Below, one piece after another: positions 20,857-33,073 of a DNA stretch of 64,000 nt. The notes under the pieces were generated by a model, which did no database searches, was not told where the DNA came from, and worked only from the letters and a program-made list of their open reading frames with translations. The first letter of the stretch is position 1. Every line of letters starts with the position of its first letter. The position numbers were made by a program, and so were the translations under genes. Source of the stretch: an uncultured Kordiimonas sp. (lineage in GTDB: Bacteria; Pseudomonadota; Alphaproteobacteria; Sphingomonadales; Kordiimonadaceae); the NCBI GenBank assembly GCA_947503625.1, contig CANNEK010000003.1, positions 124,001-188,000 on the forward strand. The letters are read 5' to 3'.

Positions 20857-23520
20857 TCATGTGTCTCTCAGAGCTGCCTGTGCTGCCGCCAGCCGTGCGA
20901 TCGGAACCCGGAACGGCGAACAACTCACATAGTCAAGGCCCACCCTGTGACAGAACTCAACACTGGCCGGGTCGCCGCCATGCTCCCCGCAGATGCCAAG
21001 CTTGAGGTCCGGTTTCGTTTCCCTGCCCCTCTCTGCACCCAGTTGAACCAGTTCGCCAACACCGTCCTGGTCAATCGAAACAAACGGGTCCTGCGCAAAG
21101 ATATCGTCTTTGACATACTGCTCCAGGAACCGTGCAGCATCGTCTCGGCTGATACCGATGGCTGTCTGGGTCAAATCATTGGTACCAAAAGAGAAGAAGT
21201 CTGCTGCATTGGCGATATCGCCCGCACGAAGGGCCGCGCGCGGCAGCTCTATCATGGTGCCGACCATAAAGTCCACATGATGACCTTTTTCTTCGAACAC
21301 ATCGCTGGCAATGGCATCAACATGTTCCCGCAGGATCGCCAGTTCTTTTTCTGTTGCCACCAGCGGGATCATGATTTCGGGAACAACCGTATCGCCCGTT
21401 TCCTCTTCAACGGCAACCGCCGCTTCAAAAATCGCGCGGGCCTGCATCTCGTAGATTTCAGGGTAGGTAATACCCAGCCGGCAACCGCGGTGCCCCAACA
21501 TGGGGTTAAATTCATGCAACTCGGAAGCACGACGTTTCAATTTGGCAACATCAGTGCCAATTGCCTTGGCGACATCCTCGAACTCGTCTTCTTCGCGCGG
21601 CAGGAATTCATGCAGCGGCGGGTCAAGCAGACGGATCGTGACAGGCAGGCCGCGCATGATTTTGAAAATCTCGACAAAATCTGAGCGCTGCATTGGCAAC
21701 AATTTCTCAAGCGCGGCTTTACGGCCTTCAAGGTCCTCGGCCAAAATCATTTGCCGGACGGCAATAATGCGCTCGCCTTCGAAGAACATGTGCTCTGTGC
21801 GGCACAAACCAATACCTTCAGCGCCAAATTCCCGCGCAGTTGCCGTGTCGTTGGGCGTGTCGGAATTGGTGCGAACTTTCATGGTGCGGTAGCTATCCGC
21901 CCATTCCATCAGCGTTGCAAAGTCGCCCGCCAGTTCCGGCTGCAGGGTTTTCACAGCGCCGACCATCACTTCGCCGGTCGATCCGTCAATGGTAATCAGG
22001 TCGCCTTTGTTGATATCCCGGCCCATGCAACTCATGACGCCGGTTTTCCCGTCGATACGCAGTTGGCCCGCGCCGGAAACACAAGGCGTGCCCATGCCGC
22101 GCGCTACAACGGCTGCATGGCTTGTCATGCCACCGCGCGCCGTCAAAACGCCCTGAGCGGCGTGCATGCCGTGAATATCTTCTGGGCTTGTTTCGGTACG
22201 GCACAGGATGACATCTTTGCCGTCCCGCGCCCAGGCTTCAGCCTCGTCAGCGTCAAACACGGCAGCACCCGCCGCAGCGCCCGGCGATGCCGGCAGACCA
22301 CGGGTCAGAATATCCCGTGGTGCATCCGGGTCCAGTGTTGGGTGCAATAGCTGATCAAGGGCGCCTGGCTCCACGCGCATCACGGCAGTTTTTTCGTCAA
22401 TCAGGCCATCAGCGGCCATATCAACCGCGATCTTGAGGGCCGCTTTCGCCGTGCGTTTGCCAGACCGGGTTTGCAGCATCCATAGTTTGCCGCGCTGCAC
22501 GGTAAACTCAATGTCCTGCATGTCGCGGTAATGTTTCTCAAGCTTCTCGAACACCGCGGCAAGCTGGCCAAACACTTCCGGCATGCTCTCTTCCATCGAC
22601 GGCGCGGTTGCGCCAGCCACCTCGCGGGCGCGCCGGGTCAGATTTTGCGGGGTGCGGATACCCGCCACCACATCTTCACCTTGCGCATTAATCAGATACT
22701 CGCCGTAAATCTCGTTTTCGCCGGTTGACGGGTCGCGGGTGAAAGCAACGCCTGTCGCTGACGTTTCACCCATGTTACCAAACACCATCGCCTGCACGTT
22801 AACGGCAGTTCCCCAGCTTTCAGGGATATTGTTCAGTTTGCGGTATACTTTGGCGCGCGGGATATCCCAGCTCGAAAACACAGCGCCAATGGCGCCCCAA
22901 AGCTGCTCGCGCACGTCCTGCGGGAACGGTGTTCCAAGTTCTTCCTGCGCTTTGTCCTTAAAACGCCCGGCCAGAAGCTTCCAGTCTTCCGCCTTAAGCT
23001 CGGTATCCAGGTCAATGCCCAGCTCTTCCTTGTGGATTTCGATCAACTCTTCGAAATGATAGTGATCAACACCCAGCACCACATCCGAATACATCTGAAT
23101 AAAGCGGCGGTAGCTATCCCACGCAAAGCGCGGGTTTTCGCTGTTTGCGGCGAGGCCTTCAACCGTTTCATCATTCAGGCCAAGGTTCAGAACTGTGTCC
23201 ATCATGCCCGGCATGGACACGCGGGCACCGGAACGCACAGACACCAGCAGCGGGTTTGACTTGTCGCCAAACTTCGCGCCAACGCTTTTTTCAATGTCGG
23301 CAATTGCGGCATCAACAGCGGCTTCAAGCTCGGCAGGATATTTGCGGCCATTGTCATAATAATAGGTGCAGACTTCCGTGGTGATCGTCAGCCCCGGCGG
23401 TACCGGCAGGCCCAGAGAGGCCATTTCTGCAAGGTTCGCACCCTTGCCGCCCAGAAGGTTTTTCATATCGGTCCGGCCATCTGCCGCACCGTCACCGAAG
23501 GTGTACACCCATTTGGTCAT
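20857..23520 (-). CDS. ppdK: Pyruvate, phosphate dikinase
   Basis: Interconverts pyruvate, ATP and phosphate with phosphoenolpyruvate, AMP and diphosphate. It can serve gluconeogenesis or reversible glycolysis. The 887 residues hold an N-terminal ATP-grasp domain (LLGGKGANLAEMA at about 22; SVRSGARVSMPGMMDT near 94-109) and the phosphohistidine domain with His468 in GGMTSHAAVVARGMG. The C-terminal PEP barrel has FGTNDLTQ and the catalytic Cys in GICGEHGGDP. ATG start. Its 133-base leader region contains three perfect inverted repeats, so it may be regulated at the operator or RNA level. It follows glyS on the same strand. Confidence 0.97.
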   Translation of the reverse strand: MTKWVYTFGDGAADGRTDMKNLLGGKGANLAEMASLGLPVPPGLTITTEVCTYYYDNGRKYPAELEAAVDAAIADIEKSVGAKFGDKSNPLLVSVRSGARVSMPGMMDTVLNLGLNDETVEGLAANSENPRFAWDSYRRFIQMYSDVVLGVDHYHFEELIEIHKEELGIDLDTELKAEDWKLLAGRFKDKAQEELGTPFPQDVREQLWGAIGAVFSSWDIPRAKVYRKLNNIPESWGTAVNVQAMVFGNMGETSATGVAFTRDPSTGENEIYGEYLINAQGEDVVAGIRTPQNLTRRAREVAGATAPSMEESMPEVFGQLAAVFEKLEKHYRDMQDIEFTVQRGKLWMLQTRSGKRTAKAALKIAVDMAADGLIDEKTAVMRVEPGALDQLLHPTLDPDAPRDILTRGLPASPGAAAGAAVFDADEAEAWARDGKDVILCRTETSPEDIHGMHAAQGVLTARGGMTSHAAVVARGMGTPCVSGAGQLRIDGKTGVMSCMGRDINKGDLITIDGSTGEVMVGAVKTLQPELAGDFATLMEWADSYRTMKVRTNSDTPNDTATAREFGAEGIGLCRTEHMFFEGERIIAVRQMILAEDLEGRKAALEKLLPMQRSDFVEIFKIMRGLPVTIRLLDPPLHEFLPREEDEFEDVAKAIGTDVAKLKRRASELHEFNPMLGHRGCRLGITYPEIYEMQARAIFEAAVAVEEETGDTVVPEIMIPLVATEKELAILREHVDAIASDVFEEKGHHVDFMVGTMIELPRAALRAGDIANAADFFSFGTNDLTQTAIGISRDDAARFLEQYVKDDIFAQDPFVSIDQDGVGELVQLGAERGRETKPDLKLGICGEHGGDPASVEFCHRVGLDYVSCSPFRVPIARLAAAQAALRDT

Positions 23521-29991: not shown

Positions 29992-31035
29992 ATGTCAGAG
30001 GCAAAACAATTGGGCAACGTTGTGTCAATTCGAGGACAAAGTGACAGTGCTGGCGGTGTGACAGCCATTGATCAGTTGCAGATGTTGACGTCCAAGGACA
30101 TGGCGTCGGTTAACGAAACGATCCTGTCCCGCATGCAAAGCCCTGTGGCCCTGATTCCGGAGCTCGCCGGGCACCTGATATCATCAGGCGGCAAGCGTCT
30201 GCGTCCGATGCTGACCCTGGCATCCGCAAAGCTTGTAGGCTACGACGGTGAGCGGCACATCGGGCTTGCAACAGCCGTCGAATTTATCCATACGGCCACG
30301 CTATTGCATGATGATGTGGTGGACGAGAGCACCCTCAGGCGCGGGAAAAAAACCGCCAACCTGATTTGGGGAAACCAGCCTTCTGTTCTGGTAGGTGACT
30401 TTCTTTTCAGTCGTGCATTCGAACTGATGGTTGGCAGTGACTCGTTACGGGTTCTGAAAATTCTCTCCAACGCATCTTCGGTTATTACCGAGGGCGAAGT
30501 GTTGCAGTTAACGACAGCAAACGACCTTTCGACCACTGAAGAAAAGTATCTGGAAGTCATCACCGCAAAAACGGCTGTGCTTTTCGCTGCGGCATGCGAA
30601 GTGGCTGGTGTCGTCGCGGAAAAAGACGAAGAGATCATTTCTGCCCTGGAGGCCTACGGCCGCTACCTGGGCATCGCTTTCCAGCTTGTTGATGATGCGC
30701 TTGATTATTCTGCCCGTCAGGCAACGCTCGGGAAAAATGTGGGTGACGACTTCCGGGAAGGCAAGATAACCCTGCCTGTTATCCTTGCGTATCGCCGCGG
30801 CACTGAAGAAGAACGCGAATTCTGGAAACGTACGATGCAGGCGGTCCGGCAAAATGATGATGATCTCGCCAAAGCGCTTGCAACACTGCAAAAATACGAA
30901 ACACTCAATGCAACGGTCGAGCGCGCACGCCACTACGGCGAGATGGCCAAAGACGCCCTTGCCATGTTCAATGACAACGACGCCAAAAAGGCGATGTTGG
31001 ATGTCGTAGATTTCTGCATTGATCGTGCCTACTAA
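29992..31035 (+). CDS. ispB: Polyprenyl diphosphate synthase (IspB type)
   Basis: Builds the long isoprenoid side chain of ubiquinone from IPP and an allylic starter. The two Asp-rich motifs are LLHDDVVDESTLRRG and FQLVDDALDYSA, and KLVGYDGERHIGLA and GGKRLRPML match the family. With the ATG at 29992 (GAGGGG before it) the protein has 347 residues, close to the usual 320-350. An upstream ATG at 29809 adds 61 residues without family support and should be ignored. Chain length (octa-, nona- or decaprenyl) cannot be told. Its 3' end overlaps the modA start. Confidence 0.95.
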   Translation: MSEAKQLGNVVSIRGQSDSAGGVTAIDQLQMLTSKDMASVNETILSRMQSPVALIPELAGHLISSGGKRLRPMLTLASAKLVGYDGERHIGLATAVEFIHTATLLHDDVVDESTLRRGKKTANLIWGNQPSVLVGDFLFSRAFELMVGSDSLRVLKILSNASSVITEGEVLQLTTANDLSTTEEKYLEVITAKTAVLFAAACEVAGVVAEKDEEIISALEAYGRYLGIAFQLVDDALDYSARQATLGKNVGDDFREGKITLPVILAYRRGTEEEREFWKRTMQAVRQNDDDLAKALATLQKYETLNATVERARHYGEMAKDALAMFNDNDAKKAMLDVVDFCIDRAY

Positions 31036-31834
31036 CAGGATCCGGCAGAAGCTTGCATCACTTCTGATAGTCCTTTGCGGCTTTGTCCTCGTATTACCTG
31101 CTTCCCTGGCAAATTCGCCTGGGAATGAACAACCACTTACTGTGTTCGCTGCTGCAAGTCTTGCGGATGTGCTGCCTGCGCTTGATAAGGCCTGGAGATC
31201 GGAAAACGAAGGCCCGGAAAGCCGGATATCCCTGGGCGCCAGCGCCGTGATGGCACGCCAGATTGAGGCCGGTGCAGGCGCATCGCTATTCATATCGGCA
31301 AACCCGCACTGGGTCGATCACCTACATCAGCAACAGCTAGCGAAATATACTCCAAAACCAGTCGCCAACAACAGGCTGGTGCTGGCTTTCCCCTGCTCTG
31401 GCAAAGCACCGGAAATCGCCACAATCCCTGATCTGGTCCGGTATCTGAAGACAAACCGTTTCGCAATGGCCGACCCTGCTATCTCACCTGCGGGAGAATA
31501 TACTCGTGGACTGCTTCAAAAACATCAGGCGTGGAGCCAAGTGAAATCGAACGCAGCTTTTGCGGGAAATGTGCGGCTAACACTCCTGCTTATCGAACGC
31601 GGCGGCATCCCCGGGTTTGTGTATGAGAGTGACGTCAGCAAAAGCCAATTGGCGTGCGAGGCGACAATGTTCGATTTTTCGAAAGAGATCACTGTTCGTT
31701 ATCATGCACTGATACCAACGTCTATCGACGTCGCCCGGGAACGACGAGCAATTTCATTTCTAGACTGGTTGACCTCACCCGAAGCGGCACAGATATGGCA
31801 ACAGTATGGATTTACCCCAACTGTACCAAATTGA
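31025..31834 (+). CDS. modA: Molybdate ABC transporter substrate-binding protein ModA
   Basis: Periplasmic molybdate (or tungstate) binding protein. A signal peptide covers about the first 28 residues (LASLLIVLCGFVLVLPASLA). The mature part begins LTVFAAASLADVLPAL, with AAASL a family hallmark, then GASAVMARQIEAGA, SANPHWVDHL and DPAISPAGEYT. The C-terminal region holds IERGGIPGFVYESDV. The chosen GTG at 31025 and a TTG at 31019 both overlap the end of ispB. The membrane and ATPase partners modB and modC are not in the window, so it is an orphan here. The gap after it holds the palindrome and sigma-54 site. Confidence 0.92.
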   Translation: MPTNRIRQKLASLLIVLCGFVLVLPASLANSPGNEQPLTVFAAASLADVLPALDKAWRSENEGPESRISLGASAVMARQIEAGAGASLFISANPHWVDHLHQQQLAKYTPKPVANNRLVLAFPCSGKAPEIATIPDLVRYLKTNRFAMADPAISPAGEYTRGLLQKHQAWSQVKSNAAFAGNVRLTLLLIERGGIPGFVYESDVSKSQLACEATMFDFSKEITVRYHALIPTSIDVARERRAISFLDWLTSPEAAQIWQQYGFTPTVPN

Positions 31835-31867
31835 AACAATCGAATATGCCTCAATGAAGGACAGGGC

Positions 31868-31884
31868 TGTTTCATTATGAAACA
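31868..31884. repeat. Perfect 17-base palindrome upstream of the sigma-54 site
   Basis: TGTTTCAT-T-ATGAAACA, two perfect 8-base arms. Its centre is about 86 bases upstream of the start predicted from the -24/-12 site. That is where enhancer-binding activators of sigma-54 promoters normally sit. It also lies 34 bases after the modA stop, but no T-run follows, so a terminator is less likely. Confidence 0.6.
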
Positions 31885-31935
31885 TGACTGACTGGAAGAT
31901 TATTTAAGCCATTGATAAAAAAACACTATTTTTTC

Positions 31936-31950
31936 TGGCATGCCAGTTGC
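31936..31950 (+). promoter_or_regulatory. Sigma-54 (RpoN) -24/-12 promoter
   Basis: TGGCATGCCAGTTGC matches the consensus TGGCAC-N5-TTGC with one mismatch. The GG and GC dinucleotides are exactly 10 bases apart, as sigma-54 requires. T-rich sequence lies just upstream. Transcription should start near 31962-31963. Confidence 0.65.
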
Positions 31951-31962
31951 GATACAAGGATT

Positions 31963-32101
31963 GCATTCGGTTCTCTGGCTGCCACCGATTTCCGAATGAC
32001 ACATAAAAATAATTGTTCCAGCTGCCATTGGACATTATTTGAAATTGAAGCTGGCGATGCCCCCTTTCCCAATCCACCGAGGCATCGCCGGTTTTTATTT
32101 T
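31963..32101 (+). ncRNA. Candidate sigma-54-dependent small RNA or terminated leader
   Basis: About 139 bases between the start predicted from the -24/-12 site and the T-run of a terminator. The RNA would begin directly with a hairpin: CATTCGG (31964-31970) pairs perfectly with CCGAATG (31992-31998). A second possible stem joins CCAGCT (32018-32023) to AGCTGG (32049-32054), and its 3' arm overlaps the left arm of the terminator, so the two compete. The terminator loop carries a C-rich stretch (CCCTTTCCC and CCACC) that could pair with ribosome binding sites. It could be a free small RNA or a leader that controls the metallo-hydrolase. I recognise no known RNA family. Confidence 0.55.
32051..32101 (+). 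terminator. Strong intrinsic terminator
   Basis: CTGGCGATGCC pairs with GGCATCGCCGG (11 pairs, one G-U) around a 19-base loop. It is followed at once by TTTTTATTTT. Confidence 0.85.
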
Positions 32102-32155
32102 GCTTTCCCCACTTTTGATACCATCTTAGAAACGCCTGTAAAAAAGGGGTATTCT

Positions 32156-33073
32156 ATGTCGACTGACACGCACGTGGAGTTCAAACAGGACTTCAGCGCC
32201 GAATACGGCCAAGCCAAAGCGCTATCACCGCTTGTCACCCGAGTGCTGTGCGAAAATCCCAGCCCCTATACCTACACCGGTACAGGAACATATCTGGTAG
32301 GCAACGGCGAGAACGTTGCCGTTATTGACCCCGGGCCCTTGATGCCGCAACACGGCCAAGCCATCCTTGCTGCGCTTGGTAAACGCCGCCTGTCTCACAT
32401 ACTGGTGACCCACACCCATCAGGATCATTCGCCGTTATCGGCATGGCTGAAAGAACGCACTGGCGCGCCCATACTGGCTTTTGGCCCGCATGGCACTGGT
32501 AGAAAAGGCGGGCTTGAAGGCGAAGATGTGGAGGCCGGGGCGGACAAAAACTTTACGCCTGACACTCTATTGCGTGACGGCGAAACCATCAAAGGGGACG
32601 GATGGTCACTGCGGGCTGTTCACACGCCGGGCCATACGGCCAACCACTTGTGTTACTTGTTGGAAGAAGAAAATACCCTGTTTGTTGGCGATCACATCAT
32701 GGGCTGGGCAACGACGGTCATCTCCCCGCCGGACGGGGACATGCGGGATTATCTTGCCAGTTTGAAAAAAGTTCTGGACCTCGCTCCGGAAAAACTTGCA
32801 CCAACACACGGGCCCTGGGTTGAAAATCCGGCCCGTTTTGTTCGCGGTATCATAACCCACCGGCGCATGCGCGAAGGCCAGATCATTCGGCGCCTTGAAA
32901 AGGGACCGATGGCAATCGATATAATGGTTGGGCAGATGTACAAGGATGTGGACAAACGTTTGCACCCGGCAGCAGCAAGATCGGTTCTCGCACACCTGAT
33001 TGCGCTAGTGGACGAAGGTCGGGTTAAAGCAGATACGACACCAACGCTTGGGGCCATCTATCGCCTGCCATAG
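32156..33073 (+). CDS. MBL-fold metallo-hydrolase (LACTB2-like)
   Basis: A 305-residue metallo-beta-lactamase-fold protein. The metal motif is THTHQDHSP (HxHxDH), followed by HTPGHTANHLCYLL and a late FVGDHIMGW. The C-terminal 70 residues (RRMREGQIIRRLEKGP onwards) look like the winged-helix tail of LACTB2-type proteins, which in known cases act on RNA or thioesters. The ATG at 32156 is preferred because AAAAAGGGG lies upstream; an earlier ATG at 32039 would place translation through the terminator. A possible -35 TTGATA lies just after the terminator, so it may have its own promoter. Confidence 0.88.
   Translation: MSTDTHVEFKQDFSAEYGQAKALSPLVTRVLCENPSPYTYTGTGTYLVGNGENVAVIDPGPLMPQHGQAILAALGKRRLSHILVTHTHQDHSPLSAWLKERTGAPILAFGPHGTGRKGGLEGEDVEAGADKNFTPDTLLRDGETIKGDGWSLRAVHTPGHTANHLCYLLEEENTLFVGDHIMGWATTVISPPDGDMRDYLASLKKVLDLAPEKLAPTHGPWVENPARFVRGIITHRRMREGQIIRRLEKGPMAIDIMVGQMYKDVDKRLHPAAARSVLAHLIALVDEGRVKADTTPTLGAIYRLP

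Follow-up and report, generated by a model that had tools for sequence, protein, structure and literature searches.

The segment 31822-32101 of the window (the whole stretch of Kordiimonas DNA analysed, 64,000 nucleotides) is probably a gene of the genus Kordiimonas for a stand-alone small RNA, which we call sRNA1, with one NtrC-type regulator driving both sRNA1 and a second RNA, sRNA2. Such a gene in this marine bacterium and its relatives is apparently hitherto undescribed, and a single signalling protein seems to run two such RNAs, sRNA1 among them. Comparison of genome sequences supports the RNA and its structure, the layout of the promoter, the common activator sites and the joint occurrence with the regulator. 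The sequence-only reading had proposed a self-contained sigma-54 small-RNA gene here, a proposal supported by the conserved promoter, the enhancers, the covarying hairpins and the lack of a consistent reading frame.

The unit lies between a modA-like solute-binding protein gene (31019-31834, + strand; an ORF with Pfam SBP_bac_11) and a gene for a hydrolase of the metallo-beta-lactamase fold (32156-33073, + strand, with its ATG at 32156). The predicted -24/-12 sigma-54 promoter, TGGCATGCCAGTTGC, occupies 31936-31950 on the + strand, identified by its motif and its conservation and with the GG-N10-GC spacing claimed for it earlier. It precedes the predicted small RNA of about 140 nt (31962-32101, + strand), which rests on covariance model R1 (own-genome match with an E of 4.7e-28) and on pair counts. 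All three hairpins are on the + strand. Hairpin 1 (31964-31998), with CTCTGGCTGCCACC in its loop at 31973-31986, begins just after the predicted start at about 31962, where a 5' hairpin had been noticed. The core of hairpin 2 (32014-32034; loop with AGCTGCCA at 32020-32027) is the weakest helix, with 80% of its cells paired. Hairpin 3 and its U-tract form the predicted terminator (32051-32101): a 19-base C-rich loop (32062-32080) is carried by a stem of 11 pairs (32051-32061 with 32081-32091) and, by sequence reading, followed by a U-tract at 32092-32101. The 11-pair terminator with a T-run ending at 32101 is thus in the sequence as previously described.

Conservation of the -24/-12 site and of the hairpins in close relatives had been set beforehand as one of the points on which the proposal would stand or fall, and both are conserved. 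A blastn search of 40 genomes with the intergenic region matched nine including its own, namely seven of the 18 other genomes of the genus plus a short match in another family. The eight aligned sRNA1 sequences have in common the -24/-12 box, the three hairpins and extended loop segments that do not vary. Covariance model R1, built from eight loci on the transcript only with the promoter excluded, was searched against 296 genomes of the order at an E of 0.001 and matched 19/19 Kordiimonas and 0/277 others. This zero is too strict, since sRNA1 also occurs in Pseudokordiimonas caeni (L109, 32.5 bits) and in another genus (genome G021, locus L148), both missed by the genome-wide R1 search. A scan of genome contigs gave 39 stretches, of which 11 were backed by R1 (ten full, one cut off). 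Weak R1 matches on the reverse strand of some loci arise because hairpin 3 is nearly palindromic; these rows were excluded from the final pair count. A weak Streptomyces match to R1 (21.5 bits) was treated as chance, as was a blastn match (L036) resembling the region 5' of the -24 box, which adjoins a putative tRNA (sequence reading) and has no box. The Pseudokordiimonas sRNA1 (L109:2600-2870, - strand, and L148) has an extra GCUGCCAC hairpin, and its terminator loop contains repeated UGCCUG.

The predicted fold is more stable than that of shuffled sequences: -44.7 kcal/mol for 31960-32101 (z of -4.14; one of 200 shuffles as good) and -44.5 kcal/mol for 31962-32101 (z of -4.12; none of 200). 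Across 18 sense sequences the three hairpins show two-sided compensatory changes at 27/29 pairs, with 92.1% of cells in standard pairs, in an alignment that was fitted to the structure and model and so flatters the result (L055, below the cut-off, was excluded). None of 500 shuffles paired as highly, and with the partner shifted by 1-3 columns 29-48% remained paired. Loops 1 and 2 both contain GCUGCC. A generic scan of the window found no terminator because it takes loops of at most 8 bases, the loop here being of 19. The U-run is good in the window and in 11 further loci but weak in 8/20 sRNA1 loci (fewer than five of eight bases T after the modelled stem), in which the RNA may end elsewhere.

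The promoter pattern TGGCAYN5TTGC occurs twice in the 64-kb window against 0.70 expected, and two occurrences were reached in 13 of 100 shuffles. It is therefore not significant within the window, in line with the earlier view that the motif alone is weak, and the question is decided by comparison. All 20 sRNA1 loci examined have the -24 box, and 18 of them have the -12 GC; this conservation across aligned loci is what raises the putative promoter motif above chance. When the promoter-blind R1 was applied to 11 held-out genomes, TGGCA lay 9-12 bases before the model start in 11/11, and the -12 GC was found in 9/11; two held-out loci, L045 and L048, have TTGA at -12. The generic scan found no sigma-70 promoter, and rpoN is present in the own genome. 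Twelve own-genome TGGCAYGN4TTGC sites were scanned as candidates for further such RNAs, and these 12 loci gave no new RNA with these activator sites. Other sigma-54-like boxes were seen along the way. One is in the window, TGGCACTGATGTTGC, at 21545-21559 (- strand). Two divergent boxes (L012/L013; G000:C2:327236, - strand, and 327434, + strand), one identical to that of the window, lie some 6.5 kb away from L064, a LuxO-like gene, one of the genes there being sugar-transferase-like by sequence reading. A further box (L021, G000:C4:286536) stands ahead of a gene that reads as flagellin-like.

Upstream of the box lie palindromic activator-like sites of the form TGTYYCA-N3-TGRRACA. In the window, site 1 (TGTACCAAATTGAAACA, 31822-31838, 22.3 bits) and site 3 (TGTTTCATTATGAAACA, 31868-31884, 22.2 bits) have the exact pattern, the former overlapping the 3' end of the modA-like gene; between them is the weak site 2 (TGCCTCAATGAAGGACA, 31847-31863, 11.6 bits), with a site at the same offset in most sRNA1 loci. 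There are two to four activator-like sites per locus, with at least two in 25/25 loci (20 sRNA1, five sRNA2), and their usual spacing at sRNA1 is 25 and 21 bases. In the 4.07 Mb of the own genome the exact pattern turns up just three times, twice ahead of sRNA1 and once ahead of sRNA2, while a reversed control gave none. Of its 22 places over six genomes, eight are at sRNA promoters, one precedes the regulator gene of G023, one (L155) adjoins a box-like sequence in what is probably coding DNA and 12 are without a box. In four other genera no sigma-54 box is near 12 of 19 exact places, which counts against our explanation. In G023, which belongs to another genus, the exact sites without a nearby box are L146, L149, L152, L154, L157 and L158. 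Between the activator-like sites and the promoter is an IHF-like site, TATCAATGGCTTA (31905-31917, - strand), which agrees with the IHF consensus at nine of nine positions. Such a site (at least eight of nine positions) precedes the box in 14/20 sRNA1 and 22/27 sRNA2 loci, compared with 16% and 18% of mononucleotide shuffles, and its position is constant (minus strand, 30-32 bases ahead of the box) in 13 sRNA1 and 17 sRNA2 loci.

The activator site, used as a query against the own genome, revealed the second sigma-54 unit, sRNA2, at C1:427258-427378. Its sequence is unrelated to that of sRNA1, and both of its hairpins have UUUGCCUGAG-like loops. Covariance model R2, built from nine loci, matches 34/296 genomes: 19/19 Kordiimonas, seven of ten other genomes of the family and eight outside it; sRNA2 reaches beyond Kordiimonas to other members of the family and to two more families. 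The 28 sense sRNA2 loci, which include two outside the family (L184 and L187), have a sigma-54 box in 27 cases and at least two activator sites in all 28, and two-sided changes are seen at 27/32 pairs (26 distinct sequences). Of the six matches in family f5, two (L188 and L189) were examined, and they lack the box and the sites. A DUF2336 gene (L024:1581-2555, - strand) lies upstream of sRNA2, with a homolog at 23/28 sRNA2 loci, in some only at the edge of the locus. The sRNA2 motif UUUGCCUGA is also found in the linker or loop 2 of some sRNA1 copies (L008, L005, L009 and L046).

We propose that the NtrC-type regulator encoded at locus L062, presumably switched by phosphorylation, would bind two or three of the TGTYYCA-N3-TGRRACA sites at sRNA1. 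IHF would bend the DNA, and the AAA+ domain of the regulator would open sigma-54 polymerase at the -24/-12 site, giving the RNA of about 140 nt with its three hairpins. The same regulator would drive the sequence-unrelated sRNA2 elsewhere in the genome. Both RNAs would act in trans, their exposed loops (GCUGCC, UUUGCCUGAG and the C-rich terminator loop) pairing with mRNAs, probably close to their ribosome-binding sites; in hairpin 3 the C-rich loop, of the CCCUUUCCC or CCCCACCUC type, could pair with Shine-Dalgarno sequences. A target search with CTCAGGCAAA, complements of the sRNA2 loop, gave 24, 11 and 21 matches in three genomes, against 0, 4 and 1 for the reversed control. No 5'-leader target of this loop was common to all three genomes searched, which counts against our explanation. 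The one site that they do have in common falls some 490 codons into a reading frame of 983-999 codons in two of them and mid-frame in a shorter stretch of the third; a site in a hemF-like leader (named by sequence reading) was found in the own genome only. Two of the target sites resemble the glycine riboswitch motif.

The repeated loops might instead titrate an RNA-binding protein, in the CsrB or GlmY manner, which we consider unlikely, though it fares best among the alternatives. It would account for one loop motif being kept in two hairpins of each RNA while the stems change, for the three GCUGCCAC-type loops of Pseudokordiimonas and for the absence of a common mRNA leader target of the sRNA2 loop in the three genomes. 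Csr RNAs, however, carry GGA loops, and neither RNA has one; moreover, the motif is present in only two to three copies, and the C-rich terminator loop suits pairing. Beyond the choice between titration and the mRNA pairing that we prefer, we put forward tentatively, as somewhat less than an even chance, a dedicated two-component output made of RNA only in an alphaproteobacterial order: the exact sites of the regulator genome-wide would all stand before two unrelated sigma-54 small RNAs whose repeated loops contain UGCC (GCUGCC and UUUGCCUGAG) and which act jointly on a common target or on an unknown RNA-binding protein.

The choice of regulator rests on the sites at its own gene and on its distribution. 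Nine strong sigma-54 activators are encoded in the own genome. FlbD, NtrC, NtrX and PspF score above the NCBIfam cut-offs; among the other five, two are LuxO-like below the cut-off (L064 and L065) and three, including L062, fit no NCBIfam model at cut-off. The L062 gene (G000:C1:1309046-1310515, outside the window) encodes REC, AAA+ and HTH_8 domains, and it is the only one of the nine with two activator sites just before the gene. In the family, 25/25 L062 orthologs have a site of at least 11 bits within 250 bp upstream, compared with 1/26 orthologs of the LuxO-like L065 (a control of 30 loci, three cut-off matches and one paralog being left out). Ten other genomes of the family have both the regulator and sRNA2 in seven cases, and both were missed in three, a split with a chance of 1 in 120 by our own calculation, two of the three being fragmented drafts. 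The regulator was found in 18/19 Kordiimonas; the exception, G002, is 76% complete and has both RNAs, which counts against the assignment. TacA is a tentative name for this regulator. The accessible parts of PMC7010744 give no TacA binding site for comparison.

That one of the two LuxO-like regulators is the activator instead appears improbable. Their best NCBIfam score is indeed for LuxO, below the cut-off (548 and 608 of 800 bits), some 5 kb separate L065 from rpoN, and the Vibrio LuxO and SypG sites (TTGCAWWWTGCAA and TTCTCANNNTGMDWN), as given in the portion of the source at hand, resemble the Kordiimonas site (PMC10162802). The same portion describes other LuxO-group regulators of Vibrio that bind similar sites, which also counts against the assignment to L062 (PMC10162802). 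L065, however, is present in 29/29 family genomes, including three without the RNAs, and L064-like matches are patchy across these 29; neither of their own loci has a site of at least 9 bits, and the single L065 ortholog with an upstream site is an exception. The activator of both RNAs is thus likely to be the NtrC-type response regulator L062, as judged from genomic co-occurrence and site placement.

The hydrolase gene comes next after sRNA1, on the same strand, in 20/21 loci, with a modA homolog upstream in 18/21. This constancy is what a cis-acting 5' leader or attenuator of the hydrolase gene would predict, and the weak U-run in 8/20 loci would suit read-through into it. Such a role nevertheless seems quite improbable: at L048 another gene, a cation-diffusion-type transporter by sequence reading, separates sRNA1 from the hydrolase, and the window copy has an 11-pair stem with a good U-tract. 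In addition, sRNA2, with the same promoter layout, precedes a convergent gene in five of the ten loci examined and cannot be a leader there. The neighbourhood therefore favours a stand-alone sRNA1 over a leader. It is hardly conceivable that the unit encodes a small protein, since the open frames of 35-41 codons overlapping the window copy vary in frame, start and end across the 11 loci examined and the stem changes are compensatory.

At gathering thresholds, the Rfam search of the window matched only the serC leader, with no match to Qrr or GlmY/GlmZ; nor was there one for L002 up to an E of 1, and a search of L024, L109, L147 and L002 gave one sub-threshold match (E of 0.15). The serC leader is a known family (RF00517; 5653-5704, - strand, 61.3 bits). 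These searches agree with the earlier reading, which recognised no known RNA family in sRNA1. In the literature retrieved, as far as its accessible text goes, no paper deals with Kordiimonas small RNAs, except for one incidental mention (PMC9426491). If our explanation is true, Kordiimonas offers an independent case of the design seen in Qrr, GlmY and Pxr, in which a switch-like sigma-54 promoter under signal control is dedicated to small RNAs; in Kordiimonas one regulator would command two families of them. Annotation would gain two new RNA families, the regulon could be tested through its defined site, and one could ask which signal Kordiimonas reads through RNA.

By analogy, sRNA1 may work like Qrr with LuxO, GlmY with QseF or Pxr, while Rfam does not support membership in Qrr or GlmY. 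For alphaproteobacteria, the available part of a Sinorhizobium meliloti study gives sigma-54 motifs at 112 start sites and predicts promoters also for small RNAs overall, but unlike our case names no sigma-54 small RNA of the sRNA1 kind (PMC3616915). In the excerpts consulted, the Qrr system of Vibrionaceae, with LuxO or SypG, similarly combines a sigma-54 promoter, pairs of sites upstream for NtrC-type response regulators with a CA-N3-TG core, and a short RNA with a terminator (PMC10162802). The comparison with Qrr made from the sequence is hence apt as a mode of control, without making sRNA1 a Qrr: the Kordiimonas RNAs have no Rfam Qrr match, are two and unrelated, carry other loop motifs and, judged by co-occurrence, would have a regulator other than the LuxO-like one. 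GlmY of Enterobacteriaceae, with QseF/GlrR, likewise has three upstream sites of the TGT-N-ACA form, assistance by IHF, a sigma-54 promoter and a small RNA, its sites in the sections seen being TGT-N12-ACA and those of Kordiimonas TGT-N11-ACA (PMC6075780). sRNA1 has no Rfam match to it, and in Kordiimonas the regulator gene does not adjoin the RNA. Pxr of Myxobacteria, compared in sequence via Rfam only, differs in adjoining its regulator gene nla19, yet according to the extract available it is an RNA of about 100 nt with three stem-loops, a predicted sigma-54 promoter and loops that matter for function, as proposed here for sRNA1 (PMC5568312).
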